From Branchiostoma floridae (taxonomy: Eukaryota; Chordata; Leptocardii; Amphioxiformes; Branchiostomatidae): DNA of 64,000 bases. The position numbers and the translations under genes were made by a program. How positions within the stretch are numbered: the stretch's first letter is position 1; each line of letters starts with the position of its first letter. The notes under the pieces were generated by a model that made no database searches, had not been told where the DNA came from, and saw only the letters and a program-made list of their open reading frames with translations. Location: the NCBI RefSeq assembly GCF_000003815.2, contig NC_049981.1:25047875-25111874 (forward strand). Direction: 5' to 3'. Shown piece after piece: positions 34,401 through 64,000 of this stretch.

Positions 34401-37400
34401 AAAAACAATTCAAAAATGTTTTAATAGGAAGAAGTTCAACTATGAGAGATAAAAAATTTAAATTTCCTTTGATTGTGACATACTGGATAGTCCTCTCCTG
34501 CCAAATCCACTGGCAACGTATAGCAAAATCATGTACTAGCAAGCAGACTGGCTCTGGCCTGCACAATCCATCCTTGACAGGCAGTGATTCAACAAATTTT
34601 TATCTTAAGTGACCAGCCAATCACATTGGTCTCTTGCCTGTAAGAGGAGACATGATTGGCTGATAATTTTCTGGAGAAATTTTTCTCTGTCCAGCATTTT
34701 TCAAAATGCTAGACAGAGATGTCTGGGACAGCATTATTTGTGGCACCTTTTAAAATATTAGGATGAACTGAACTGAACTGAACTTTCCAGTCAGGGAAGT
34801 CTGACTGGCTGACAGCTCTCCAGTACTAACACAGCCAAAAGAAAAGATTACTATAACTGTGTAATTGCATCATACTAGAAGTGAATGGCAAAAAAAAAAA
34901 TGCATAGCGATAAGACAAAAACCCTCCCCTACGTTTATTTTGTCTATCAGGAGGGTGCAGGTGTTGGAGACGTCCTTGACAGAGACCGTGACAATGTGAA
35001 CATCACAGACTTTGGGAACGGGATACGAACAAGGGAGAGGAGGGACGCTGATGAGCCTAGTGCTGGAGAATCCAGGTCGCTGAAGACAGGGGAGAAACTG
35101 TCAAATCTGGTAATTCACCACTCTTAACCTCACTTACTCATCAAGCTTGTTGCCATAAAGTGTTGCTGGTTGTCCTAAAGTTATCTAGTTTTTAAAGATA
35201 ACTTTAGGACAGCCGGCAACACATTCAAAAGCATTGCCAGGACCCCTTTATGCAGACCCTTGTAATGTTACTGGGTAATGTTTGATCTCAATACTTGCAT
35301 CTCCATCTGTGCCAGTTGCGGTCTTTTGCGGTCTGATCAGTGGTCACAGGATACGTGGTTTATACAAAGTCCTGGCTGACTGTGTTAATGAATGTGTTCC
35401 TCCCTACAGCACTGCTCCGGTATGCCTGAGGACATGGCCCGATGTGAGAGGATCCGCTGCACCTTCACCAACATTCAGAAGGACATCAAAATCACCATCA
35501 AGGCCAGGCTGTGGAATAACACCTTAATCATGGTAGGACTTAGCCAGTGTTTACACACTCAATCCATTGCTGCTTTTGTCATAGTGTTTCTGGAGGATAT
35601 CATCATGATGTTGTTCATTTCCATTCCCACATACTTACTCTTACTTGAGTCCAAAATAATTGTATTAAGCTGATCTTTTACGGCAACCCCAAATGTTTGC
35701 CACCTCCAATCCTTACATTTATAACTGTAATAGACTTTCAACAGATCTTGAAAAAGCTATTTACTGAAAATAGTACTAACTGTTACAAAATCATTGTCTC
35801 TGAATTGAATTTCATTTAAAAGCTTTCTTGGTTATCCTCAATTAGCCAAGAAGTGTTTTCTATTGCTGATTTGACATTTCTATCTCCGCCGTAGGAATAC
35901 AACCGTCCAGGAATGGTGAGCATCAAGTCCTACGGACAGGTCACCCAATCGAGTCTGGCGATTCACGCAAACGGAGGCAGGCTGATGTTATCACACAAGN
36001 NNNNNNNNNNNNNNNNNNNNNNNNNNNNNNNNNNNNNNNNNNNNNNNNNNNNNNNNNNNNNNNNNNNNNNNNNNNNNNNNNNNNNNNNNNNNNNNNNNNG
36101 AAGATTTGTAGTCACTTCACATGGGAGAAATAGCTACAGCTTAACAAGATGCTTTTGATTAGATCTATTGCTATGAAACATAGTATGACATCAGGCCTTG
36201 ACTTATCAAAGAAATGGTTTAGATTATGGGCCCCTAGCACTACAGCAAAACTTTTGTCTGTTTTGCATTGTGTGTGCTGGACAATATGGTCATGAATTTG
36301 GGCGGTAACATTATATGTGGGTAGCTACAACAATGATAAGTGTGATATGTTTGGGCTCTCTATCTGCTTCTTTTTAAAACTCCTGAGGCATTTTAGTTGC
36401 AGATTTTGAAACAGGGAAAAGTGAGGAAGGTATATTTAGTCTTACCTTAAGTTTGTCTTTGTCTTGTCTTAGTGTGGCTTCTTCAAGAGGAAGAAGAAGG
36501 AGAAGTATGAGGCTGAGTACTACAAGGCCACCAAGGTGGCCAAGAACCCGGAGTACGGCGGCCAGCAGCCCAACTACTCTGTCATGCAGCAGGGACCTCA
36601 ACAGGGCTACGAGATGCAGCCACTGGCCCCAGTGTAAGTCTTTTCTGTTTCTTTTCTCTGTTTTTTATAACAAAACCTCCAACATAAATCAAGTCAAAGC
36701 CTTTATCTAAAATCAATGTCTTGTCCCCTTCCTTTCCAAGGTGAGTTTATCCTCAAGACATTCATCACAAACTGGATGTCTGAGTAATAAATGTCTTGAT
36801 TGTTCAATTATTCAATTTCTATTCAGTGCAAAAAGTTGGGAATTTCTTTCATTAAAGGCAGAAGTTTGAGCCAATCTGTGTCCTAATTCACCCCAAGAAT
36901 TAAGTTAAACATGCAATCTAGACACAGTAAGTTGCTTTCATTGATAAAAATGTCTTTTTCTCTCAGATTGTTACTTCAACTGTAAGATTCCTTTTGCTTT
37001 CTACAAAGAATGATGATATTTTTATATGACCTTTTAGACTATTAACTGCCTTTTCCTTCTTGATTGTTGTACCCAGAGGGCTCTAAAGTCACTGCTTTTC
37101 TTCTTCCCCGTGCATGCCTTTTACAGATCCAGGCCTGTCCCAGATATCTACGTGGAAAAGTATTACTTCGAAAAGGGTGGCGAACATAATACTTACGAGG
37201 CATATCCATCCAATTCTGCCTAACAATTTGCTTACTGCTGACACTAATTGAACCTTCACCATTCCTTTACTACTCTTACCCGGTACCAGTGTTATAAGGA
37301 ATATCTTCCACTGCACCAGTGCTTTGGATGGTCACATTTTTTTGTGATACCAATAACATAATGCTTACCTCAAATCACAATGGACAAAGACATTTGTACA

Positions 37401-45100: not shown

Positions 45101-48100
45101 TGTCATGTAACAGTTAGCGCAAGTTGGGCCCGTTCCCGCGCCGTTGTTTATGTCACGTAGCAGTATGTCGGAGTCGGGCCAGTCGGCCCCGTTCTTTATG
45201 TAAATTCATTTTATTGTTATGTTACAGTTAGCACATGTTGTTTAACATTAAAAGTAAACAAAAACGCATATAACAGACTTCAACTGAGACCTTCTGGCGC
45301 CGGTGGTCATGGCGCGTCAATTTTCCCGCCCAGTGTATTCTTTTAATGCAAATAAGGAACGCCGGCGCTTGCCGTGCGCTGGGAAAAATCGGCCCGCGGG
45401 TTTTTTGGCGTGGTTTTCACGGCAGTTTTTCGGGTGTTTGGGCGTGGTATAGCCGTACTTTATTTAAATTCAGGAGATTTCATATCTTTCTCCGTGATTT
45501 TTTTCCGTCAAGGTTGACGGAATGGTTTAATTTTTTTTCCGTCACAGGCAGCAAATTTCCGTCAATTGACGGAAAAACGGACGCTGGCTAAAGCCCTGTA
45601 CCCTATGCATATACATACTGAGAATTTGGGTGTCAATTCTAGATAATTTCCATCTCCCTAACCCTATAGATAATTGAGCTTTTCAAGATATTGGCTTTGG
45701 ATTACAATTTCTCCTGATTACTTAGTTACCTACTATTCCAAGTTGTCATCCAGTCATCAATTCAAGTTCCCAACTGTCATTATGATAATTCATGTCAAAA
45801 TCACTACTTTTGTCAACTTCTTGTTTGGTTTCTTGCATCTCATCTTAAGATTCCACTGATTATGTTTTGTTGTGTAAAATGGCCCCTCAAAAACCCGCTT
45901 GTTCCAAGATTTGATAAAGGAATGAAATAAATCTACTTCATGGCTAAGCCTTCAATATTGACACAAAAATGTTTACGACATTCTTCTTACTTCCCTATCG
46001 CAACTTGCAGAAAACCTTAGATGTTGCTTGAAATTTTGCCCTTACCTCAGTGATGCTATCCAAGAGTTTGCCCATGGTCTCACGGCGCTTCAGCTTAGCC
46101 CGTTCCATGGCTTCCAGCTTGACCAGAACGGCATCGATCTTGGACACGATACTGCCGATAGAGTGCTCCATGCGGTCCACGCGGCGGCTCAGGCTGTTTG
46201 CGGGAAAATATTCAGAAAAATTGTGATACAAATGCTAGTTACATTTTAGTTCTATTTTCCTTATTTGTGTAATGGAGACATCTGTTAGATTAATGATTAT
46301 GTGCTCTCAAAAAATACAAAGAGATCTACCAAACAATACAATAAATGTGCATAGTATAGGTTACATTAATATGCAAATATGTACTGTACAAGGGAACAGT
46401 GGGTATTCAATGTGTATGAAGACTACAGTAGGGACAGAGTGCCTTGATGACAGACATTCAAGTTTTCGCAGTCACCAGAAAAAGAAAATTTTCATCATCA
46501 TCATCATCAAAGACAATTTCCAGTTGTTTAGAATACAACTACTTACACAGTGAACTCCTCAAACGACACACCGTGCATAGGGCGGTCGTCATCCTCATCT
46601 CCGCTGGTCATGTCGTGGAAGCTAGCGCGGCTCTTGCTGTGCACAGCCGCGTTCTCCCGCGCCTTCTCCACATCCTCAATCTCCTCACTCAGCTCTTGCT
46701 GCAGATGGAAACAAACACAGAGATGTGATCAACCACAGAACATCAAAACAAATACTGCACATTCATTTATTCAATTTCAAGAGATTCCACATTTCATTTT
46801 AAGTAGAAAGGAGGTCTTCAATGTGTTTTAAGTTCTGGTCAAAATAATACTGTTACAGTTACTGTAGTACTACAAAAGCGTATTCTTGGTGATAAAATTT
46901 GATGGGGACAAAAATGATAAAACCAAGATTTATAGCACAATGTAGTAATATTAAAAAGTGTTACAAAAAGTTCACTCCAAAGGCCAGAGCTTGCTTGATT
47001 ATAAATGCAATAGGTGCAGTAACTATAGGTGTAACACAGAGAGGGACCCGACTACATCACATGCGGAAAACTGCAAATGGAAAAACGTGATTCTAAGTTT
47101 GCGGTGAACATGTCATAGTGAAAACTGCAAACATAAAACCACTGCGGTCACTATCCCTTAGCAGATGTTATAACAGATACCAGCTCTCTTTGACCCGGAG
47201 ACAAGTGTCAGTGAAATGCTAACCTTCTGGCCTTCCAGGTCGGCCTGCATCTTAATCTGCTCGTCCGCATCCAGCACGCGATCGCCATCAAGATCGTACT
47301 TGGCGAAGACGGCCTCAATCTCAGCATCAGCGTGGCCACGCCTAGCGTTTAATATAATAGGACAATATTTCATTTCACACATTTGTCGTCTATCATGTTC
47401 TGTTTTTCTTAAGTTGGTGGGTTTTCCCTTAGTGACTGATGAGCTACTTATCAGAGAGGCCCTGGATACTGAGTGCAAACATGCTTACAGACCAACTTTC
47501 ACAATTGCTAATAAGACTGCTACACATTCGGTGCTACAGGGACACCACCAAGTGCCAAACGTTACATGTATAAACCGGAAGACTAAACAGGTGCATTCTG
47601 AAAGATGGAAGGGAGTAAGAGTTTTTAAAACTAATAGTCATTATGTGAGATGGTCAGAAGATCTTTACAAATTCCATGCTCGAAAACACTTCTGCTATGA
47701 TTCACTGAAATTTTTTACAATGAGGGAAACCGACATAGTGGAAGTATCCTGTGAAAATGTCCACATTACGAGGACTCACGCTTTCAGATCCTGGCGCCAC
47801 TCCTCAAAGTCGACCTGCTTGTCGCGGTTGACGTCGGCAGCCGCCAACGCCTTCTGGATGTCCACTATCTTGTCCCTCTTGAACTGCAGCTTCGACAACA
47901 TCTTGTTGTATCCCTGATATGATGATGAGCAAAAACTTGTCATTACAAGGGCAATCCGGGCTACCTATCTAGAGCCTATGTCACACATAGCCTATCATGG
48001 CCCAAAAAACTTTCTCAGACTAGAGTAAGAGTAAGCAAGGAAGTTCAACACCCATACATTTTTTCATCATTTTTCCAGAAGCACACATAATTGCATAGGG

Positions 48101-51100
48101 TTGGTGTAAACAACTAGTTTTTATACCTAGGTAACAGAAAGTTTAATTCATTACCTGCATATTTTTCTGCAAAACACAATTTTTGTCAAGTGACAAAAAC
48201 AGCCATCTCATGACAACACTATGTATTTTGGCATACTAAAAAACATATACCAAGCTCACCTTCTTAAAGTAGTCCCCGATCTCGAACTCGCTCTTTTGTT
48301 GGGCAATCTCCTCTTTCACTTCCGAGTAAGTGTCATTGATGATCGCCAAGAACATATTCTAATAAGGACAAACAATAAACAAGGTTATTGGTGAGCATGT
48401 ATACAAGGTTTATGTCTTGCAAATCAATTAAGTAGACACTGTAGCATTGTTAAAGGTACTCAGTGTGGCAATACCACGAAGATTGAAATTTTCTGGCCAT
48501 GTCTTTACACATCAAGTTGAATCCTCTCTGTAGGATTGCAAAATAATCTTCAAGCATTGCAACAGTAAATAGACAAAAACAGTGACTTCACATCTGGCTT
48601 AGACCTCAGACCCTCCTATGCCTACAGGCACATTGTGCTCTTGGTAAATGTTGGAAATATCACATATTAATACAAATGTACTAAACTGTGCCTGTAAATG
48701 TTAACTTCAATAAGATTCTCATGTCCACAATTTTTTTAGTTTCCCTGACAAAAATCCTGCCTTGAGTACTTTGAATTTGAAATATGCAGTGTGGTGCATT
48801 GTTGGTAATATGTCAAGGTGACAGCCCCTAAAATATAAACAAAACGTATCTGGGCATGCGTCAAGCATAGCCTAGACAAGAAAGAACAGTTAGGGGCTTT
48901 CACCTTTGACCTCGTTTATGTGCATTTCAAGCAGTGAAACCGGCTTATTGGCATTAGGACTCACCAATAGGACGAAGAAAACCAACAAGATGTATGTGAT
49001 GAAGAACATGGGACCGAGGACACGGTTAGCTTCCTCCAGAGCGTTGAAGTCAAAGTCACCCAGGATGATACGGAACAGGGTGAAGCTGGAAAGCAAAGGC
49101 AAACAATTGAGGTTTTTACAGTTCTAATTTTACAGACAAAGCACTTAATTATGGCATTCAAACACAAATGAGCGATGTTATGATTTCACTACGGAGACTG
49201 GTCACCACAAACCTTTCAAGAATTACCTGTACTCACGCTAAGTAGAGCCTATTTCCTACCTTACTAGGGCTCAAAATACTGGTTGAATATGCACATTTGT
49301 GCATCCCAAATTGGAATTATAAACTAGAATACTGCATATTCTTGAAGTACTACATATTCTTGATTCAGAAAAAATAATAAGAATTTTGTTGTATTGCTTG
49401 TTCAATATTTTAAACATGCTTCAAGTTTGCCTTATATCTCAAGCTGTGAAGAGAAACAGTAAGACACTCTACTATATCTTATGCTGTGTACCTACATTAA
49501 TGAAAGTTTGATGCACCAGTATACATATTCTCAAACATGAATCCTGAGCTCTGCATACTTACATGGCATCTGGAAAGGTGCTGAAGTCCTTGACCTGTGT
49601 GCCGAACACCAGGTAGCCCAGCTGGGCGTAGGCAAAGAAGATGATGAAGAACATCACCAAGAAACCCGCGATGTCCTTAGCACAGCGGGCAAGAGTGGAC
49701 GACAGCTGTGTCATCGTCTTGTTGAAGCTAATGTACTTGAATACCTAAGGAACAAGAACAGACTCTTAAACTCTCAAATGACACAAAGGCAGATTTCCAT
49801 CCCCTTAACCTACACAGCTTTAACCCGCAGGACAGAGGCTACTGGGCATCTGCCTGACTAAATCATACTTCTGACAGCCTTCCACTGGTTAAGCCCCTGA
49901 AAGCCAACAACTTAAACTCTAAGTTGGGAGACTTAGGAACATCCTAAACCTGCTAATTGTCAGTCAGAAGGTGTGACTGACTGGTTTCCATAGTGACAAA
50001 GAATCCTGAGCTTCTGAGTGAATAAGAGTGTTAAGCCCCAATTGGTGACTATAAGAAAGAGGCCCAATTAGCTTGTGATAGTGAGAGATTGTACAATACA
50101 GGCCTAGCTTTGGTTTTCTAGATATCAAAATGAAATCTTGGGCTGGGTAAAAATACTGACAAGAAAGTTTCCGTACCTTGATCCAAGCAAAGAACACGGT
50201 GATAGCCACCATGTCGTTGTAGATCCCCTGGGCCCATGCCAGGAACTCGAAGTCAGCGTACGTCTCCGGACTTTCCAGGAGCTGATCCAACAGTTCTTCT
50301 ACCTTCAGGGTCCGGTACACGTTAAACGCTACAGCGGCCAGTGACAGCTGTCAAAAGAAAAAATAATAATGTCAGTGCATGCATGTTAAATGCAATGTAC
50401 CCCTTGACAATATGCTCATCAAAATGTGAAAAGAGTTTGAAAAACTGCACAAGAATTTCTTCTTTTTTTCCTTGAATTGTACATATGGAAGGAGTAACAA
50501 AACAAGTGTGATGATACTAGGCGGTATACAAGGATAGAATTCTATATGCAGTGTCCTCTCTGGCTGAAAAATCTGTCAGGGGTTGCACTTTGATATTTTT
50601 AATACATGTCTGTTCAATACATTTCATCACCAAATCACTTTCTGCTTCAAAATTTGATTACTCCCTAATTTATGTCAAACAAGTAAAGGAGCTCATTTTA
50701 GCTTTTTTTTTACCTTTTCAACAGATTGATAAAAGTGAGTAACATCCACTGAATGCAAAGAAAGACAATGACTTAAATAGACTACAAAACTCTACAGTAG
50801 CACATGATGGTTTTACTTTTTCACCATGTTTGAAACTTGTGGTTGGTATAATTCTGTAGTACATAGAATTTCAAAGAAAACACATAATCATAGTGGCATG
50901 ACATCTCCGAAGGTGACTGCGAAAATACCCCCCCCCCTCCCAACAAACATTTTATGATTTTCAGTACTTACCATGATGACAGTAATGTCCAAAATGTTGG
51001 AAAAACTCTTGAAGTACCCCAGCCTGTGGCGCTTGATCTCCAGGGCCTCCTCGATGATGTAGTAGATGATGAAAAGGACATACAGCCCCTCGCATGCCAT

Positions 51101-54100
51101 GATGAAGAAGTCGTAGTTCGTCACATACCGCAGGAGCTTGACCGTGCGGAAGTTGAACGACGGGATGAGTCCACCGGTCGGTGGAAACTCGGCGGTCAAC
51201 CTGGGACAAAAAACGATCTTAATCAGATGCGGTAAACTATGGAAAGATACAGAAAAAATCTGTGCCGCAAAATTCTAAAAAGTGTGGCAAACTTAAATGA
51301 ATGTACGAATGATCTGTAATAGCCAGTCAGCTTGAAAATAACCTTCGTCACCCTCCTTGTTGATAGAAACATAAAACTCTTGATTCTCGCTGTGCCACCT
51401 AGTGCAGCAAAAATCAAACAAATTTACAGTAACTGCCACCATCACTACATACAGCCTGAGGACACGAACTCTCCTGTACCGACCTGATGACACAGAACAG
51501 GTTGATGTTGGCGTTGTAGACGGTGAAGTCGATGAAGACCACCCGGGTCCCACGATCCGTCCACAGGTTGTTGAACAGCTCCAGGATCTTGGCCTCGCTG
51601 GCCGGCCGGGTCAGGTTCAGGTCCTGGACATAGCCGTTGCCTGCGTAGCTGGTGAGCTTCCCCCGGTGTCCGGAGCCGTCTATTTCATCCGAGTCCTTAT
51701 GAAACCACCTGTGTGGTTTAGGCAGGTTTATGCAGAGTGTTAAGGCAGAACATCTCAGTTCATTTTGGGTCAGATGTCTAGCAACTGTCCCTTCCTAGGA
51801 ACACTTCTAAAGCAAAATAACTGTTGGGGATGACAACTGAGTTTGTTTTCTTTCAGTATCTGCAATTTTGGTGAATTCAAGGAAAAAACATCATAAATTG
51901 GGCATCTCCACATAGGATGAAAACCATTTTCACCAATTTTACCACAAAACTGGCTTATGTTGACAAGTAAAAAATACACTTGTCTATTATTGATACAAAT
52001 GTATATAATTTATATAAAATCCTAATATGAACCATTCCACGAGGTATTGCAACTCTGCTCACAATACACCACTGATAGCAAAGGGTTCAATGCAGAAGTG
52101 CCATACATACGCAACCCAGGCCTGTAGATTAACGGCGGTTAGTATGCCACGAGAGAAACTTACGCGTCCCAGGTCACGGTGGTGTTGTCGCCTTTCACAC
52201 CAAGCCCGAATGGCTCCGTCTCTTCCACCGCCTCAGAGTAGGAATCAAAGCATTCCAGAATCTCGTCCTTGAAGTCCTCGTGAACAGCGCACGAATCATT
52301 CCTCACCTAGGATTTGACATGAGAAATGTCAGCACACTCTAAAATAACTTTACTTTGCGGTGGATACATTCAAATGTGGCTACAGTTTATTACTTTGCTA
52401 GAATTATCATACTAGATGCCAATAATCATATCATTGAGCAATTACGTTAAGATGTGACAAGTCCTTTTGCTGTTAATATGCTGTAAATCTTGGAATGTTC
52501 ATGGCAGTTTTATTTTTGGTGACCAAACTATCAATTGCGATATCAGGACACCGCCAATATGCATTTAAAACCAGCTGCCACCACATGCCTACAAAGCTGG
52601 AACACTGAAGGGCAGTTATTGACAAATTCAGATAACAAACTGTCTTTCATAGATTTCTATATCCTTACAAACATGGGCTCCATGCAAACATGGTACCTTG
52701 AGCTAGAAGAAAAAGTGGCGGCATCTTTGAGTACCTTGATTTGGCGAATGCGAGGCACTCCCAGCATCTTGTTCTCGTAGTAGATGTAGGCGCCGCTGAC
52801 GTTGTTCTGGTTGTACCACTTGGTCCAGTACAGGCCATCCAGCAGGGGGCCGCGGGTAAACTGCAACATTACGTTTCAAATATTTCAGATGGAGCAGAGT
52901 TACTCACTTTCTGTGCCAATGAAGCAGGCAGGTGCTGACAAAAAATGTTGGTGTCTATTTGCACTTAAGTGGATTTTGGCTCAATCCTAAACACAGTTTT
53001 GTGCCTTATTATTCTGTAAGTTTTAAAGTATTCGTAATTCTTAAGAAAAGGGTCTACAACAAAAACGCTTGAGGTATGATTTCTTAAAATGCAAATTGGG
53101 ACACCAACATGGCATGAAAATATATCTTCTAAATAAAGCTGAAGCGGGCATGCGACTTTATAATTAGAAAGGCTCAGTCTATTACACTAAATTCTGGCAG
53201 GCATGTTCAGGTCCCAATAATAATTAGATCTGAGCTGTCCAGCTAGAAATTATGTGGAATCTAACTATGCGCCACAAAAAGAGTATGCAGACAAGCCAAC
53301 TATCAAGCAGAGAAGGAAGAAAATGTACATCCGAAAATAGTCACATCAGGTTTGTATGTCACTAAGACTCTTTTCTACACAACCCAAACAGTCACTAAAA
53401 CGATGGTGAGAATAAAGCATTGGTTACAAAATTTTGTAAAAAAAAAAAAAAAAGAGCCTCTTTATTCAAGAAAATGTACACATTTTGAGGTGACACTGAC
53501 CTTCCACCAGTCAGCCATGGAGGTCATCCCACGGTAGCTGTTGCTACCGCTGCCGCAGCACAGGCTGGAGTCCAGGAACAGGTCCTCCATCACCTTGGTG
53601 AAGTAGAACATGGTCGAACCCATCATGCCAAACGTCACTGGGGGAGGAAGACCATGGAAGCAAGCATTGAACAATCATGATATCAAGGAAGGATCTACCC
53701 GAAGGCATTGCCAAAAAATAAATCCAAATGCAATGGCTAACCGAAACAATGGTTTATACAGAAAGAAAAAATGGCCTAACAATTCTATTATAAACCTACT
53801 TCTGCTTTAGAAGAGTTTGAGTTCACAGACAGTAGAAAAGGAACTACATGTATCCAACATTTTGGTAGATATGGGCTTGGATGGTTTAACAGTTAAACAG
53901 GAAGATGTCTTTTTGTTGTTTGGCAATAGGTGATTTCTTTGAACAAATTATATCTTCAAACTTTATTTCATACCCAGACATTTACCAAGATTGATTATTA
54001 CGGCTAGCAAATATGACTGTAGAATTGTGCTGATCAATTTCATCTCTGCTCTTCAAAAACTAGTTCTTCAAAGACAGCACAGTAATCCAAAGAGTCAAAT

Positions 54101-57100
54101 ATCTGATAAGCTTAATGATTGACAGTACAAAAGTGCCCCCTAGCTGAAAGGAAATATACTGCAAAGCAACATCTTTAATGCTTGACTGTGATAGTGTGAA
54201 GAAAAAGCTATGAGTAGCTTGTTATAAGATATGAATATTTCTTGGGGGGGATACAAATTCTAATATTTTTAGTCTTTGGACATGCAAAGTCTACAATTGC
54301 AAAACTTTTTAAGTAAGTTCACATCTATAATTTGGACACTTGTGCTCATGTCATTTTAACAACTATCAACCACTTCAGCACTTACACCTTAATGCCAACT
54401 GTCATTTCTGGCACCAAAGATCTCGTATCTCTTCATAAAACATTCAGGAGTCCTTTGTGCCACGAACAATGGGCATGAAACAGGCTCAAAGTATTTCTCT
54501 GGGGAATATATCAATCATCCTGCATAGCAACACACTGACATCACCGTGTCAGAAGTCCTTGCATCCCTGAGAGAAATAGATTTTACAACTTCTTACTTTA
54601 ATACTTTTTTGTTTCAAAACTTAGGCCAGTTGGGGAATGTAACTAACCTTGCAAATAATGGGTACACTTCGTTGTAGTTACTTCTAAGTAGATGAACTAA
54701 TTATCTGAAACTTGGCAGAGTTTGAATAAAAAAGTGCTTTTGTCACGTTCCCTCAACACCTGAAGTGTTCTAGAGGGTCTCAATTGCTCATTTGGTGGTA
54801 AGGTGTGGTGGCAGTGGGGAGAATTGAAACTCTGAACGTCAATGGACACTGTTTCACATCAATCTTGAGAAGATATCTGGTTGCATTACGTTGCACATTT
54901 CCACGAGAAACTATCAAACTGACAGAGCATGAATCTTGTAGAACAATCCAATGTCTTTAAATTGAGGAAACATGCGCCAAATTTGAGGAATAAGACAGAG
55001 ATGAAGTTTCAAAGGAATATCAACAAACACTATTCTAACATGTATCTATCTTTGAGTTGGACTTACTGGTAATTGCCCTATCTCAGAGAGATACATATCT
55101 TTTTAAAGATACATAATCTTTCCTTCTTTCTTTTCAAAATAGTTTTCTGGCAAAAACGAAGGTAAATAGACTGCAAAATGGAAAATAAAACAACCCTACT
55201 AGACTCTACTAATGCATGTAATGGACAATGATGATTCATTCAAAGATGACAAATAAAGATTTTTATAACCTTCTCCTATTTCAAATCGTTAAAAGTTCTA
55301 TCCAGGTATTACCGGAGTGCAAGTCGCAAATACATAGAAATTACTTAATAGCTATGAAATTTTCATGTTACGACACGTCAGCCTTTTGTTGCGCAACCAT
55401 CCTTTCAAAACAGGGTTTGGTGGATGCACACCTTCTTGGCATCATACCTACGCACGAGATCGTATCTGAAATTGTCTTCTTTGAACACAGCTCATGAAAT
55501 ATTCAAATGTTGTTACCTTGTTTCGTTAATAATTAATGAGATCCCAAGGATGCTGCGAACACTACTTCCATGTCGCAACTTAAGTTAAGGTACACATTAG
55601 GGTTTCATGACTCAAGTTTTCTAAAAAGTAACATACGACCAGATCACTTTATATTCCAAAAATAACGCTTTTGGTACAGCAGCCTAAGGAAAATTTAGTC
55701 CAGACATCAGGTTTAATTTTTCCTCTCTATTTACCTTTGCCAAGTCAATGTTGTGTTTTTAGTTGCCATATATATTGGTGTGTGTCTGCTTGTCTGTTTC
55801 TCCCCTTTTCCGTTTTGCTAGCAGGATTTATGATCGACTCCAAATCGAGAAAGCATACCGGTACATACCGTAGCTCACCACGGCACCAGGACTCTCTTTC
55901 AGCACAAGATTATCCTTCTCCAATTCCACAGGAAAAACATTCCTGCCAATGGACAACCTCCTAGCTAATACTTTTGTGCAATATTATACTGCGCTCACGA
56001 TATGCACTAGTTCTGCCCAAAGGCTGCTGCATGCCTTCTAATCCTATTCAACACATGTATTTAACCAATATGATATAACGTCCTTGATTTAACAGACAAC
56101 AAGACTTTTCCTGCCACACATTCAATGGTTGTAACTTGTAACTATTAAGTACAATAATGCATTGTATCTAGTATACTTGTAGTAGGGTGTACAGTACGGC
56201 ACTGTGGAAAATGGCTGAAATTTTGTAAACTTTGAAGTCAAACAGGCAGTGCCTTGTACATATACTAGTTACACAGTAAACTGGCTCGAAATGATGGGTT
56301 AGTTTAAGGTTATAAACATAATTGTGCACTACCAGTAGTAGTATATGTTTTTCTTGACATTTTGGTGTCAGAAAAAATAAGAAAACCTTTGCTGTATTGC
56401 TTATTTTTTTTTTACTAATTTTGAACTAAACTCTGATGAGTGGTGATCATCTTCAAGCTGTCAGACAGTTGGAAGTACATGTATATAAAATTAGTGTTTT
56501 GGTGGCATTATACTTAATTTCAGGTTGGGCACCCAAACTGTATTCTGTGCATATAAAAATTTTGGTTGGGTGGGGCCCAAATGACATTCAAGCCCTGGAT
56601 GTATGTGCATGAGAGAATTTTGACCTGAATGCTTGAGTCACACTGCCTTGTTCCATATGGGCGATGTTGCGTTGAATGATCCTTTTCACTGGTAGTAGTC
56701 TACCATTCCCTCAAACTGCGCACTTCCTTTCAAGGTATAAATCATTAAATGATATATGTTTACATCTTTTTATAAAACTTTCCATTGGACAAACTCTTGC
56801 TGTCAGTACACAACTTGGCATTCTCCTATCCATAATTGAGATGTAAAAATATTTCAACTTTTAATTAAGACGACTATGCAACATTTTCATTTGTTGTGGT
56901 GGTTGGACCAAGAAAACACAAGTGTTTCCATAAAACTACCATCAGATAACAATTTGCGGGACCTAACTAACCATCATGAATGCCAATTTTACACAAACTG
57001 TGTTTCCACATCACAGCACCAGAACAAAAACTACAAGGTTCGAACACTTCAAACTCTTTCACAATCCTGATTCCTCTGACAAGTTGGTCAATCGCTTGTG

Positions 57101-60100
57101 TACCCAAGCAGAGTGACAAAACCTTGAGGGCCATTCCCATGCCCTTGGTTAAAACCTGATGCAGTTGTCCTATTCAGGGTACGCTATCGATATGTGATGT
57201 CCAACAAAACCTGTGATTAAGTTTCCTGACTTCCCAGTGCAGGGAGCCAGATGTTATATCCCTATCTAAACATCTTTCTGCATAGCTGAACACCCCATGG
57301 GCAGACCACAGGAGCTAGCAAATAGAACTGCGACACACACTTTCTCTCTTTTTGTTTAAAATGTTCTGTCAAATCACTAGTACTGTTTGGTAGGGCTGTT
57401 CACCGATACCAATTACTGTATGCCTGGTATTGGTACACCTTACAATACAGGTCCAAAATACCAGAACACCAATGTACTGGAACTGTACCTGAAAGAATAT
57501 ACTCTCTATATACTTGCAACTAAAACCAGTATGTTATGTGTTATTCCTACCACAAAGATGAATATCTAGCACTGGAAAAAGACGTAAACATTGCATGGGC
57601 GCTGAAATCAGCACAATCTAGGATTTGAGGTTCTCTTGTGAGCATGATTTTCTTTCTTCATTGAAGACCACAGGACAATATAATGAGGATGCTTAATTGT
57701 CAGATCGCCGGGCCCAGATCTGGACCTGCGTATGTACCTCTATAACAGTACCTGTATCTGATATGACTTTTACTTTTAGGTATGCAGCCCTGCATACCAT
57801 TTAGACACCAACTATTCTTTCCTCTTTCTTATCATCTAAATTTTCATACCAGATGTTCTCTTGTTCTCTAACAACAATTATTTCTTTTTTCTTCTTCTTC
57901 AAGTCAATTTCCAGTCAATTTCTCCACTTAAATACTACTTTTAAAGTAATTCACTCCACTGCAAAGAGTAGAAACCATGGTTGTGGCTCTCATCAATCCA
58001 CGGTCGTAACAAAAACAGTTGGCTCTACTTCCAGTGGTCTGTCCATATAAGTCCAGGTATGGGAGTCAGGCACAAACCTGTCCTCTAAACTGCCAACTAA
58101 AATTCTTATAAATGGGCTCCCTAGGGGCTATCCATGTGATAATCTGAACTATTTCTAGGCCTTAGTACAAATACTTCTATTAATCATTGTATATTTGCTA
58201 TCCTATAAATTAAAAACATAAACTTAAATTCAAACCATTCAAGCAGGCAGATTTTATGATACTTTTAGGTCATAAACTGGCAGATTTTTTTGTAGAACGT
58301 GAAGTTTTATGTAAGTCTGTTAAGTTAATCTACAGGTTTCTTGAAACACTTATTGTATCTACATGTATTTGAAATGGGTTTACACAACAAGTTGCATCAC
58401 ATTAACAAGTCAATTCTTTTTAAAGTAAAGTTTGGTCAGAAAACAACAAAACACAAATCTGTTTACTTGTAAACCACATAAATACTGCCTTCATTTTAAA
58501 TGCATATACAAAACATATACATATTATCCTCTTGCAGCATAGCTTTGGAAGAAAAAGAAACCTGTCAACAAAGAGATAGGAGTTATAATCATTAGAAAAA
58601 CTTACCTGTACCAGGAAAATAAGGACAGTTTTGAAGGGTAAATTCTCTGACAGTACAATGACAGAAAGAGAGGTAAGGAAAGTTGAGAGTCAGTTTCTGG
58701 AAATTGACAACTAGCCCTTGTAAGACGTACAATCTGTACAACAACAGATAACTTGATTAATAGAGTGAGTGAGTGAGTGAACATATAGGCTTCTTTGTTG
58801 GAAATGAAATGGTATAGTAACTCAGGCACTGTACTAAAACATTATCTATTTTTCTCAGTAACACTGCATTTACTTCTTTGAACATCAATTGTTAAATGCT
58901 CCAAGGTGGCTTTTTCAAACTTCTAGTAGTCAAACATATGGGGGACAAATGTTGTCTCTTTAAAACTTACAGTGTTTACAATGTTTACAATATGTTTTAA
59001 TAAATGTACATATAGTGTTGTTCTGTGCTGCTGCCATTAGATTGGTTAATCCTAATTCTTGAGATCAAAATAAAATCTATTGTTATTCTCAAAACTTGCT
59101 GAATTTTTAAGAAAGCAAAAACCAGACAGTTTGTGTATGGCTTCTACATTAGAAGTTTGTGCCTATTTATTTTTCATTACACAAACTTGTAACACAAAAT
59201 TCTGACAAGTATGATATTCCAAATCCCTGTCTTTAGAAAAAAAAATCCTTGATATATGCAAAAAGAATGAACAATACGAGACATGAACAATGATCTATAC
59301 ATAGGTGCATGCGTAAGAACAGGAGTTCCTTACACGCAATATAGACAGTTACACAAAGTGCTTGAGTGACAACAGACTTAGTTGTGTGTGACACCTGTAA
59401 CAGAGATGGAGTGACTGACGTCAGAGAGCTATTGTGTCGTGCCCCTGGGTGAAACAAACTTGTATCCCAAAGGGACCGTGGCAGAAAATAGCATGTACAC
59501 ATCTCTTACATGCCATCAGGTACTCACTTACACACCTTGAATGCTTTTAAGTGGCAGAAAGGTGACATACATGTATAAACATAAATGTATCCACAGGAAA
59601 GAATAAGAACAGAAGTTGGAGAACCATGCAGGTTAGGTGGAGGTATTTCTTTTCTTTGGTGCAGAGAGAAGATGTGTGGCATGTTGTCCGCTTTCCAGAG
59701 TAATGGACCTGGACCTCTTTTCTTGTTTTGCATCCGATGACGCAAGCAAGTGCCATGACAATGTATGTCTACAGCACGCCAGCTTCGTTTGTGAAAAGGC
59801 CTCACACCTCTAGGGACGGGGTTTTGGCATCCCATAGGCGGGCAATTAACCGAACTTTAAACTTCACACCACGGGAGGTTTAGAGGTGTCAAAGTGAAAC
59901 TTTTCGCTGATAGTTCAAACTACTCCAGGTCAACTTTTGGACCACAAAAGATTAAAAATATTTTTGTCCACTCAGATAAAGAACTGAATAAGCCAAATTA
60001 TACACAATTTCAAGCTTTCAGTGTCCTGATCTATGCTTTGGTGTGTTTGGTGTGACTGTCGAAAAAATGAATCCATCAAACAAAGATTGAATGTGATTGG

Positions 60101-60493
60101 ACGAATTCGTACCAAAGCATATCTCAGATTCTTCTCAACTCTGGAAAAGTCGGACTTAAAACGTTGGCCACACTTAGAAGCACCAAGTACTCACTGAGAG
60201 ACAGAATGGATATGAAGACAAGATAGGTCCAAAGTTCTCGCAGAGTGATGCGAATATACGCATCTGTTCCCGGCTCAACGTCATCGGCCATCCGTGTGGC
60301 CCAAATACCTAGAGAGAGGGAAAGAAGGGAAGACAGACGGAGGTCAGTACGGTCTTGTCCAGGGGTCAAGTGTACTTACGGATGCATAAGATGACGATAA
60401 AGATGATATAGGTGAAAAGTTCCCGCAGCGTTGTTTTCACATATTGCTCCTTGTCGCCATGGAATTCCTCCGTCTGCCTGGTAGCCCACATAC
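42163..60493 (-). CDS. PKD2: Polycystin-2 (TRPP cation channel), 5' end not in window
   Basis: Reverse-strand exons in transcript order: 60380-60493 or 60195-60308, then 53501-53637, 52735-52860, 52164-52306, 51484-51708, 50972-51200, 50177-50347, 49563-49744, 48965-49085, 48260-48358, 47780-47913, 47224-47341, 46547-46698, 46046-46193, 43617-43793, 42163-42192. All phases agree and give 767 residues plus stop. This covers human polycystin-2 from just before its first membrane segment to the C-terminus. Near-identical blocks include [28 protein letters not shown] and [13 protein letters not shown]. The protein is a six-transmembrane TRP-family channel of cilia and ER, assembling alone or with polycystin-1. 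The LGD selectivity-filter sequence is kept (RIILGDFDF). The N-terminal cytoplasmic exon(s), about 200 residues in human, were not found up to 64000. Confidence 0.93.
42540..42929. mobile_element. 390-bp MITE with perfect 34-bp inverted repeats
   Basis: The ends 42540-42573 and 42896-42929 are exact inverses over 34 bp (GGCCTAGG, an A8 run, then TGTTGTGTTTCCTGTTTC). TTA flanks both sides (42537-42539 and 42930-42932), a possible 3-bp target duplication. CCCTACCTACC motifs follow inside. Located in the last PKD2 intron. Confidence 0.8.
43253..43331 (-). repeat. tRNA-like sequence (pseudo-tRNA or SINE head)
   Basis: On the reverse strand TAGCGCAGTGGTAAAG resembles box A and GGTTCGAATCC is a perfect box B inside a 5-bp T-stem (CCCGG/CCGGG). 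A GCATT/AATGC anticodon-like stem encloses a 7-base loop. The acceptor stem does not pair and the base after the anticodon-like triplet is a pyrimidine, so a functional tRNA is unlikely. A T-run follows. Confidence 0.5.
43432..43460. repeat. Short perfect palindrome
   Basis: GCATTTTGCGACT and AGTCGCAAAATGC are exact inverses separated by three bases. In a PKD2 intron, 170 bp past the exon end at 43617. Confidence 0.7.
43836..44045. mobile_element. 210-bp inverted-repeat element (TACTGTAAATG family), copy 2
   Basis: Same family and same length as 6313-6522, in the opposite orientation. The right end is CATTTACAGTA; the left end TACTGTAAAAG has one change. It begins 43 bases upstream (PKD2 sense) of the exon at 43617-43793, close to the splice acceptor. 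Confidence 0.7.
44278..45598. mobile_element. 1.3-kb non-autonomous hAT element, copy B
   Basis: Perfect 16-bp terminal inverted repeats (CAGGGCTTTAGCCAGC) and an identical flanking 8-bp duplication TACCCTAT (44270-44277 and 45599-45606). Both subterminal regions hold clustered CCGTCAA/TTGACGG motifs, candidate transposase-binding repeats. The interior has three imperfect direct repeats around TTTATTGTCATGTAACAGTTAGCGC (44975-45240) and no transposase frame. It is a longer relative of 6586-6926. Confidence 0.9.
46492..46510. repeat. (TCA)n microsatellite
   Basis: About six TCA units just past the PKD2 exon edge at 46547, intronic. Confidence 0.8.
48260..51200 (-). other. PKD2: PKD2 exons 6-10: S2-S6 channel core and pore
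   Basis: Exon 50972-51200 carries S2 ([20 protein letters not shown]), 50177-50347 S3 and its linker, 49563-49744 S4-S5 and the start of the pore loop, 48965-49085 the pore helix with LGD filter and S6, and 48260-48358 the end of S6 and the proximal tail ([16 protein letters not shown]). Hydrophobic spans and the charged [15 protein letters not shown]4 region line up with human polycystin-2 without gaps of note. Confidence 0.88.
48780..48935. repeat. Relative of the 9047-9258 element
   Basis: Contains GCATTGTTGGTAATATGTC, CTAGACAAGAAAGAACAGTT and GGGCTTTCACCTTTGACCTCG. The first two correspond to GCATTGTGGGTAATATGTC and the inverse of ACAGTTCTTTGTCTAG in the 9-kb element. It abuts the PKD2 exon at 48965-49085. 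Confidence 0.5.
51484..53637 (-). other. PKD2: PKD2 exons 2-5: TOP (polycystin) domain
   Basis: The extracellular TOP domain between S1 and S2 is encoded by 53501-53637 ([16 protein letters not shown]...MADWWK), 52735-52860 ([16 protein letters not shown]), 52164-52306 ([19 protein letters not shown]) and 51484-51708 ([29 protein letters not shown]). The conserved cysteines of the human domain's disulphide are present as NDSC and ECF. In family structures this domain forms the lid over the tetramer. Confidence 0.88.
52927..53125. repeat. Palindromic TTGGTGTC repeat, copy 2
   Basis: GCAGGTGCTGAC...ATGTTGGTGTCTATTTG at the left and ATTGGGACACCAACATGGCATG at the right, the same layout as 18880-19135. 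Edges approximate. Confidence 0.45.
53638..60194 (-). other. 6.6-kb PKD2 intron between S1 and TOP exons
   Basis: Apart from the transposon remnant at 57391-57791, I see no exon, gene or clear repeat in this interval. Open frames are short and lack recognisable domains. A splice-bounded stretch near 58606-58650 (reverse) has a good donor but no homology. Confidence 0.4.
57391..57791. repeat. Diverged relative of the 5' AGGTAC hAT element
   Basis: It starts TAGGGCTGTTCACCGATACC and ends with the inverse of AGGGCTGCATACCTAAA, close to the termini of 159-572. Inside are GGTATTGGTACACC, CTGTACCTGAAAG, CCAGATCTGGACCTGC and CAGTACCTGTATCTG, echoes of the AGGTAC motif. Flanking 8-mers do not match, so it is old, rearranged, or the edges are imprecise. 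Confidence 0.5.
60195..60308 (-). other. PKD2: PKD2 TM1 exon, version b (tandem duplicate)
   Basis: Also 114 nt with the same phases, acceptor TCTCTCTAG and donor GTGAGT, 71 bases downstream of version a. Translation: [37 protein letters not shown]. It aligns without gaps to version a, with 16 of 37 residues identical including WATR and TLREL. Its pre-helix linker is acidic and differs from that of version a. Confidence 0.82.
60380..60493 (-). other. PKD2: PKD2 TM1 exon, version a
   Basis: A 114-nt exon with acceptor TTTGCAG and donor GTAAGT. Translation: [37 protein letters not shown], then CTG completed by the next exon. It corresponds to the human segment from LWGTR through the first membrane helix and is the closer of the two versions to human (the ends ILCI-L-T-GMM agree). 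Phases are 2 bases in and 1 base out. Confidence 0.85.
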
Positions 60494-63400
60494 CTGCAAA
60501 TACATTCAAACATTGCTCATCATACTGTTATTGCTACAGCTCTAGAGGTACAGTCAAATCTGTATAACATAAGGCCATCTCTATAAAAGGACCACATGGC
60601 CAATATGATTACATGCACTATTTGGCACTTCCTTACATAATCTTTCCAACAACTGACATAAGCCTAAGAAATTTTGTCTATATTATATATACTAGTGTCC
60701 TCCCGTCCTCATAAACCACGTTTTATCAGGCCTGGGTACTGAAGTGCTTTTCAATCATCAACCACAAAAGATAGTGTCTCTAATCATCAATTGTGATTGG
60801 ATGTTTACGTGGTGGTTGAAAAACATTGAGTGCACTTTGTGGACATTCTTTTTTGAAAGATTTAACATATTTTTATTAATGGCTAATCAGGCCAATCTCT
60901 GCCCTTATAAATTATATCTTTCCATGTAAAAACTCAAATTTTGTCTGTAACAAAACCTTTACATTTCTACAGTGATATTTGATTAAATTCAGCTGTCTAT
61001 GTGTAACAAAAATTCTGAATATATTGACACCCTTGTGGGGTGAATATTTTGCACATTCTGATGTGGAATTGATTAAAATTTCACCACTAAACCATGCCAG
61101 AATATCATTCCCAATACATCTTCTGACACAGGAAAAGGGGATGTCAGAAAAAAAATGAGCTTATGATTATGAAAGTGTACAATCCTTGACAAGACAGGGT
61201 TAAGTCCAAAAATGGAGAATTAAGATTGACAAGTCACAGACCATACCAGGGCATATGTATGAGTGGCCACAGTAATCACCCATGATATGTCTTGACCATA
61301 GATTCCAGCAGCCTTGGGAAGCCTTAAATTCTAGAATCAGGACCCATCCCTTTGTCCAAGGAAGGAAATCTGCTTGTGGGATGGACCCCATGTGTCAAAA
61401 ACTCTGATTTTAATGACATTTGATGAACTTGTACTTTTGTGGGCTCAAAAACAAACCTCCCATTGCTTGATTGCTTTGTTCCAAATGAAGGTGTGCTGCT
61501 CTTGTAATTAGTTCTCTATACCTTTTTTTTTTCTGGGGTAAAACTGGGGAAACTGAAAGGGTTACATTGTTCATAATTAGCAAAAGTAGCTGCTGCTGAA
61601 AACAAAGGGTCTGACTTTTTATCTTTCATCCTAGCATACCAGATAATTAGGCTAGAGACAATTAATTCCACCAGTGACAGCTCATGTGCTAATTATAGGG
61701 GGCAATGAGTCCAGTGCAAACCTACTTTTCAACTCCAAATGAATGTGTTTGACTATGTTGTCATAGCAACACAGATAAGCTATGCCTGCAGGCATTGTGA
61801 GGATATTAGGCATGCTTGGCAACTTCCCCAATGAAACCACCTGGTACTATGTATATAGGATTAGCCAACCAGTGGCAATGTCTTGTTTAGATCACAGCTA
61901 TGTTGTACATGCATTTTAAGCATCTAAAAAAGGCTTTATAACTTTTAAGGTAATCAATGTATGTATTGTAAAATCTGACTGGTCAAAACAATGAAAACTT
62001 TTTGGTCATTTTTCTACATCATGAGTTGAATCTACACTACACCCAAGCCATTTTGTTTTCTGCAGCTCAGGAGTTTTCAGTAGGCTGTCCAACACATAGG
62101 GACTTGCAGCTCACTTTCACATAATTTACCAATGCATGAAATGCAAAAAAAAAATGCAAAAAAAGCTATTAAAACAAGTAGCTCTGAATTTAGGTTTTGA
62201 AGATCAGAATATTTGCAGGTTTGGCACCAAACTTGCTCAGTTATGTACAGCACATAACTAATAGGACAAACAGACAAACTTTGATTAATATATGTCTGGT
62301 ATCTTGGCATGGCTCTGCATTGCTTGACATTTCCAATGCCCTGCACAGCTCCAATTTTACCTGTAGTAAGCTGCATATGCAGGTGGTATTTCGAGTCCTG
62401 CATGGTCAATCTGAATTTAATTTCTTCACTTCTTGTGAAAAGATTTTGCCACAGATGATGGCGCAAGTCAAACATTCCTGTTTTACAGTTTTAAAACAAT
62501 GAGGATGCATGGCCGTATCTAGTAATTTACATAGTCATTTCCATAGTGATAACAACAATGTATTATTGTATGTAGTAATGTGCCATTGATTTCGATTAAA
62601 TTTTGTATCATACTCTCTCAGTTTTTTAACACTTTACGGAGAAAAAATTTCAAAATGTTGATTTTTTTTTCTAGATGGCCTAAAAATGGTTCAACTGAAC
62701 AATGTGTTCAGTGTTCTGGATAGATTCAGTTTGGACCTGTTTGAACTAATCCAATAACCAGAGAGCATTGCCAAATAAGAATGTACTTTTTGTTGCCATG
62801 ACATGCCATCACACAAAAACTCTATGAATTATTAAGCAACTTCGAACAATAGACACCCATATCAAAAATCCATCCAGAGAAAAGCTAGATAATTACACCC
62901 CATCTTCTTCAATGCACTACCAGCATTCTGTGAGTTATTGGAGTTGGACCAACCTATTCTAGAATGTCATAAATCTTTCAAGACTTTCTTCAAAAGCATC
63001 TGTAAAATATTAGGGGTGGTATGTGTGTACTTCAGTATGCCCTATCAAGTTTCAGAAAACCAGACACAGGATTCATCCCCTATAAATCATACATGAAACA
63101 GAACTCAGAACACAATATGAAAGATGCACTTCTTTCCAGTACAATAACTTGTATGAATAATTAATCAGTTTTAGAGGCATAAATCGTCTTGCCATTTTGC
63201 AAGTTATGGTGCTCATATTGTGTGAGTGGATCATAATTACGTGGCGATCTTGGGGTGTAGTGGGGCAACTATTGAAGGCATGCCATCAAATAAATTGATG
63301 CTCCCAGAAGACATAAATTATTCAGAAGGCTATTTTACAAAAAAATTGCTGTACATTTCAAGTGAAGACTTTTCCAAGGCCGATCTGTGTCCCCATCTTT

Positions 63401-63956
63401 CTACAGAGCAACAAGAGCCCAAAGTTATAATCTTACTCTCAAATCTTCTGAAATTTAGCAAAATGCTTTGTTCATCGTTCATCAGATTCGAGGAGTACTT
63501 TCTTTAGGTCTTCCACCATCAACTTTTACTTGACCTATGCCCTATGTCTGTTGGATGCAGTTGCTATGGAAACCAGGGCAGTCATCTTTCTTTTCATTTC
63601 CCCTCAGTCCTGAAAACTTATCTATACACAAATACCTGTAAATCTTCATTTCTTAAAGATTTGGCATGAAAAGTGAAGAATGGCTGCAACCAGAAAAAAG
63701 TTTAGACATCCTTGAACTATTTCCATATTTCCTTGCATTTAGCCATTTTTCCTAACATATCTTTTTAGAAACATCACTTTTGGTGATATCAGTCGTAAAA
63801 CATGCCTCCATATCATCACAAACGCACAAAAATGGAAGTGATGAAGACATGACATCAATGTCATGGATATTGAAGTTTCCGCGAACATTGCTGATGAGGG
63901 ACCACACAGGTGTAAACAAACGCTCTCCAAAATATTCAGCCCCCCAAAAAAACAAG
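60494..63956. other. Upstream PKD2 intron or intergenic DNA
   Basis: No exon was recognised. The acceptor of PKD2 exon 1a needs an upstream exon ending with one base of a glycine codon, and I could not find a convincing one here. The missing N-terminal exon(s) probably lie beyond the window. Confidence 0.4.
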
Positions 63957-63993
63957 ATGGCGGCCGGTGTCACGACTTCTTGGTATGTTGTGA
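63957..63993 (+). CDS. Candidate first coding exon of a + strand gene
   Basis: AACAAGATGGCGGCC has a good start context. The frame reads MAAGVTTSWYVV and meets a consensus donor, GA|GTAAGTG, at 63993-63995. AAGATGGCGGC is also the YY1-type motif found at many animal promoters and starts. The product is not identifiable from 12 residues, and the exon may instead be a chance frame. It would be divergent from PKD2 if the PKD2 5' end lay just to the left. Confidence 0.3.
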
Positions 63994-64000
63994 GTAAGTG

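Follow-up and report, generated by a model that had tools for sequence, protein, structure and literature searches.

A tandem pair of exons for the first membrane segment of lancelet PKD2, probably used in a mutually exclusive manner

The polycystin-2 gene (PKD2) of the lancelet Branchiostoma floridae contains two neighboring versions of the exon that encodes the pre-S1 linker and the first membrane segment (S1). Both are located on the minus strand of the window, i.e., the whole 64,000-nt stretch of DNA analyzed here (C3:25047875–25111874, in a 513.4-Mb assembly of 431 contigs): exon 2A, henceforth termed A, at 60380–60493 and exon 2B, termed B, at 60195–60308. Each measures 114 nt with phase 1-1, and a spacer of 71 nt (60309–60379) separates them. 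As judged from its sequence, the pair is a real, old and constrained tandem exon duplication in PKD2. We further propose, with a probability of roughly 80%, that A and B form a mutually exclusive pair that arose from this tandem duplication and is kept apart by its spacing.

Exons A and B are both bounded by AG and GT, and both carry an open reading frame. Their ungapped alignment contains 16 identical residues in 37 full codons (43.2%), or 17 of 38 when the split glycine is counted, and 64 of the 114 nucleotides match. The exon lengths and positions, the shared phases, the 71-nt gap and the residue identity reported for the pair in the initial annotation were all confirmed on the minus strand. 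The same holds for its claim that either exon joins the next one downstream in frame (53637–53501, exon 3 in our numbering and exon 2 in the earlier one). The split codon at this junction reads L with A and M with B. The frame is also kept by joining A to B, as had been claimed, and by skipping of both exons. The pair thus shows the sequence features of mutually exclusive exons, namely neighboring internal exons of like length with mutual similarity, a shared frame and GT-AG borders. The resemblance is not a chance effect: among the 78 phase-1 open AG-114-GT stretches on both strands of the window, A and B included, B has a score of 101 against A and the runner-up has 5, and none of 100,000 shuffles of B reached 101 (maximum 37). 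Among the peptides of 13 PKD2 exons (A, B and exons 3–13) compared with a 104-kb region, a second copy was found only for A and B, which matched each other. An assembly artefact was rejected because the two exons differ at 50 of 114 nucleotides.

The identity of the gene as PKD2 and the duplication of its S1 exon, both proposed in the initial annotation, are borne out by matches to human PKD2 and by the homology between A and B. With human PKD2 as tblastn query (a sequence whose first 84 residues agree with PDB 5T4D), ordered matches run along the minus strand from 60494 to about 47209, and the homology spans the pre-S1 region, the polycystin domain, S2–S6 and the EF-hand region. Joined to exon 3, A and B match human polycystin-2 with best E-values of 2.2e-21 and 6.4e-17 (PDB matches), and PKD2L1 with E-values of 1.4e-18 or better and 4.3e-14 or better, respectively. 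Bit scores are slightly higher for PKD2 than for PKD2L1 chains (78.9 vs 71.0). A polycystin-domain HMM match lies within the gene at C3:25099330–25099587; Pfam returned no family at the cut-off for the two N-terminal isoforms, for each of which the 187-residue N-terminal part alone was searched.

Exon 3 (53501–53637) encodes the end of S1 and the start of the polycystin domain. From there, the model continues on the minus strand with exon 4 (52697–52860; edges picked among candidate sites), exon 5 (52164–52306; 3' edge a candidate site), the polycystin-domain exon 6 (51484–51708) and exon 7 (50972–51200), the latter two with candidate sites as edges. Exons 8 (50177–50347) and 9 (49563–49744) follow, then exon 10 with the pore region (48944–49085; 3' edge provisional), exon 11 with the end of S6 (48260–48358), exon 12 (47780–47913) and exon 13 (47224–47341), the region aligned with the human PKD2 EF hand. 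Runs of N occur in the window at 36000–36099 (100 N) and outside it at window-equivalent positions 74387–74486 and 76382–76481.

Exon 1 lies 566 bases beyond the window, at window-equivalent positions 64875–64566 on the minus strand (C3:25112440–25112749). It is a 310-nt open reading frame that begins with an ATG directly preceded by an in-frame stop, ends in ...CWNKFKRFIR|G with the phase-1 donor GAG|gtaaac, and joins either A or B in frame. In the search that located it, run at looser settings, it scored 72.3, and the next unrelated candidate, another frame of the same place, scored 29.6. The coordinates yield introns of 4,072 nt before A, 71 nt between A and B, and 6,557 nt after B; the shortest other placeable intron of the gene measures about 283 nt between candidate sites. 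Within intron 1, upstream of A, the stretch 60717–60549 has three short matches (about 70–74% identity) on C17, C6 and C5 and is perhaps an interspersed repeat.

The position of exon 1, 4 kb upstream, and an in-frame ATG at the second codon of A might suggest that A and B are alternative first exons, transcribed from different promoters rather than selected by splicing. Each exon, however, is preceded by a 3' splice site, the phase is shared, and one exon 1 fits both. B has no ATG at the corresponding place, and its nearest upstream neighbor is A, 71 nt away. We therefore regard separate promoters as extremely unlikely.

When searched against the whole 513-Mb assembly at E-values up to 10, exon B matched only itself and A (two first-pass candidates, in a search that may miss distant paralogues), which points to tandem duplication of the S1 exon. 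On the same grounds, capture of B from another PKD2-like gene was rejected. No allelic copy for testing constraint on B was found, the 1101-bp region having one full match only; likewise, a search for retrocopies carrying spliced isoforms, using the peptide of A joined to exon 3, recovered just the three genomic exons. In human PKD2, S1 is encoded by exon 2, which is likewise 114 nt long with phase 1-1 and is not known to be duplicated; the unit duplicated in the lancelet gene would thus be an exon of ancient origin.

A and B are identical at 23 of 37 first, 27 of 37 second and 12 of 37 third codon positions. The proportion of synonymous differences is saturated (pS 0.76) against a pN of 0.35, with a dN of 0.46 and a dS beyond estimation; by this synonymous saturation, the duplication is old. 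B retains 9 of the 13 residues common to A, human PKD2 and human PKD2L1, compared to 8 of 25 elsewhere (Fisher one-sided p = 0.032), and its four losses among the shared residues are conservative (two changes from E to D, one from K to R and one from C to S).

These data bear on the possibility that a single exon is used, its partner being a copy in decay or a cryptic exon that is rarely or never included. Such a one-exon default could be imagined in either direction, as A shares more residues with the human protein (19 of 38, against 14 of 38 for B) and the acceptor of A is weak, with 10 pyrimidines in 20 positions. Yet despite the saturated synonymous divergence, B has an open frame and good splice sites, and its changes are conservative. 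In neutral simulations, an open frame alone occurred in 18–22% of cases and hence says little by itself. At third-position divergence, however, drift left 17 or more identical residues in none of 20,000 simulations, and at whole-exon divergence an open frame together with 17 identities occurred in 0.4%. A decaying copy thus appears distinctly unlikely.

A constraint on how A and B could be combined comes from the spacer. Counted from the donor of A, its adenosines are located at +3, 4, 7, 9, 14, 22, 24, 25, 27, 32, 36 and 70, of which +70 belongs to the 3' AG. Past +36, no further adenosine occurs until the final AG, which places the branch adenosine no farther than +36 from the donor of A. 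The putative branch site is a ctgAc motif on the minus strand with its adenosine at 60344 (+36). In human systems, a donor–branch distance of about 50 nt is needed, a rule that derives from human extracts; 46 nt abolished splicing in vitro, and at 35 nt assembly was lost (PMC6692369). Among human clusters of mutually exclusive exons, 57 (9%) have a distance below 50 bp (PMC5740500). By its geometry, the lancelet spacer falls below the 50 nt associated with steric hindrance, the branch site at 60344 being the presumed one. The initial annotation had suggested that 71 nt may be too short to splice efficiently, a point that can now be sharpened to a donor–branch distance of at most about 36 nt.

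Shorter introns are known to be spliced in some animals. In this genome, the shortest of 99 exon-to-exon intervals in myosin and TCP-1 genes is 107 nt, as estimated from profile positions in two gene families, with many intervals coming from one tandem myosin cluster; the minimum is 111 nt among the 68 myosin intervals and 107 nt among the 31 TCP-1 intervals. These controls comprise 106 of 142 myosin and 54 of 60 TCP-1 rows, the omitted ones being isolated, stop-read-through or single-exon copies. The five shortest myosin intervals, which represent one intron within one tandem cluster, measure 114, 123, 125, 127 and 127 nt by sequence under the reading that yields homologous protein. Their last adenosine outside the final 15 bases is located at +98 to +110. 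For two of the five, an alternative of 68 or 69 nt is also open, but the resulting protein is non-homologous. With all control intervals at 107 nt or more, a constitutive intron of 71 nt would be unusual in this genome, as far as a small and non-independent sample indicates.

Inclusion of A and B together, which would give the protein an extra S1-like helix or a re-entrant segment, is in frame, and there is a precedent in the duplicated helix exon H2d–H2a, which is obligatory in vertebrate COE/EBF (PMC2394523). For lancelet PKD2, we nevertheless consider joint inclusion very unlikely, given the donor–branch distance of at most 36 nt and an extra transmembrane helix that would be expected to invert everything downstream; pairs of mutually exclusive exons encoding transmembrane helices have been argued to be incompatible with joint inclusion (PMC5740500). 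The product containing both exons would have two S1 helices, and its polycystin domain would end up across the membrane from its proper place.

In the mutually exclusive use that we favor, an ancestral 114-nt S1 exon of PKD2 would have been duplicated in tandem, exon 1 would be spliced to A or B, and the chosen exon would then be spliced to exon 3. A would be prevented from joining B by the short distance, no more than about 36 nt, between the donor of A and the branch site of B, at which the U1 and U2 snRNPs would be too close for joint use. A frame shift would remove neither joint inclusion nor skipping, since 114 is a multiple of three. One gene would in this way encode two polycystin-2 subunits that differ in the pre-S1 linker and S1 and are the same in the remainder. 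The earlier expectation of exclusive use is supported by what we infer from spacer geometry, membrane topology and coding constraint.

The choice between the exons would be set by the weak acceptor of A and the strong acceptor of B (20 pyrimidines in 20 positions), adjusted by trans-acting factors. The donors read TCC|gtaagt for A and TCA|gtgagt for B; their matrix scores are 4.45 and 5.33, respectively, compared to 6.5 for exon 1 and 8.43 for exon 3. By default, selection of B is expected, unless repression acts on its pyrimidine tract. A lead in this direction is CAGACGGAGG in exon A (60467–60476, minus strand), the exact complement, over 10 nt, of spacer positions 60343–60334 (+37 to +46), which sit directly after the candidate branch site. 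When the codon order of exon A was shuffled, 31 of 5000 permutations gave a complement as long. We treat this pairing as a hint only, because the fold of the region as a whole (60180–60520) does not stand out against shuffled sequences, 12 of 100 of which reach the same stability (z −1.24). A search of 53400–64000 against Rfam gave no family at the gathering score. It is conceivable, if doubtful, that a spacing lock combined with a CAGACGGAGG hairpin, which would mask the acceptor of B while exon A is present and unspliced, selects between two subunits according to tissue or stage, the subunits being distinct only in their pre-S1 linker and on one S1 face. With such a switch, the alternative subunits would behave differently in gating or in their association with the many polycystin-1-like partners of this genome.

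At the protein level, the initial annotation had placed the main differences between the two versions in the cytoplasmic linker and on the face of S1. The first part stands: A and B differ most in the linker between WATR and LREL. Within S1 (15 positions, corresponding to human residues 224–238), seven positions differ, including changes from V to S and from C to S. For the second part, the support is modest, in that the differing positions lean to one face of the helix, with 146 of 6435 possible placements as one-sided or more.

CACNA1C and CACNA1D, which have mutually exclusive transmembrane exons, likewise provide a six-helix cation channel with more than one version of a helix. Specific mutually exclusive exons of CaV genes encode single helices. 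The lancelet gene differs in that it encodes a TRPP channel and the helix concerned is S1 with the pre-S1 linker; the events are non-homologous. Homologous adjacent exons and a donor–branch distance below 50 nt, which is expected to block joining, are features in common with the alpha-tropomyosin type of mutually exclusive splicing (PMC6692369, PMC5740500). In contrast to that type, the exclusivity of the PKD2 pair is predicted from sequence, its branch site is a presumed one, and nonsense-mediated back-up is lacking since both exons are multiples of three. Chordates including amphioxus also possess a mutually exclusive Fgfr pair, IIIb/IIIc, which in amphioxus and vertebrates likewise stems from tandem exon duplication (PMC5703972), but concerns another gene and domain and is regulated by Esrp. 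Ion channels are enriched for tandem exon substitutions, according to a study whose accessible portion mentions neither PKD2 nor amphioxus (PMC9741552), and splice variants of TRPP channels exist whose function is unknown (PMC12799467). In the open-access literature on amphioxus polycystins or PKD2 splicing, we found no report of alternative S1 exons in PKD2, which agrees, within that literature, with the statement in the initial annotation that no S1 exon choice had been described for polycystin-2.

Polycystin domains are abundant in this assembly, with at least 150 scored matches among 236 candidates, all of those listed being above the family cut-off. Tight clusters are found, for example, at C5:26.28–26.49 Mb, C13:18.6–21.9 Mb, C17:15.36–15.64 Mb and C2:31.6–32.2 Mb. 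This abundance and clustering suggest a large expansion with tandem arrays.

The A/B pair provides a clean example for splicing, because the sequence itself rules out a far branch point. If both exons are used, polycystin-2 would join the channels that retune one helix via exon choice, at a position (pre-S1/S1) for which we found no natural variant pair in the open-access literature, and would do so in a host genome with at least 150 scored polycystin-domain matches. The two exons would then offer matched natural variants with which to ask how the pre-S1 linker and S1 contribute to gating, to ciliary targeting and to the choice of partners.
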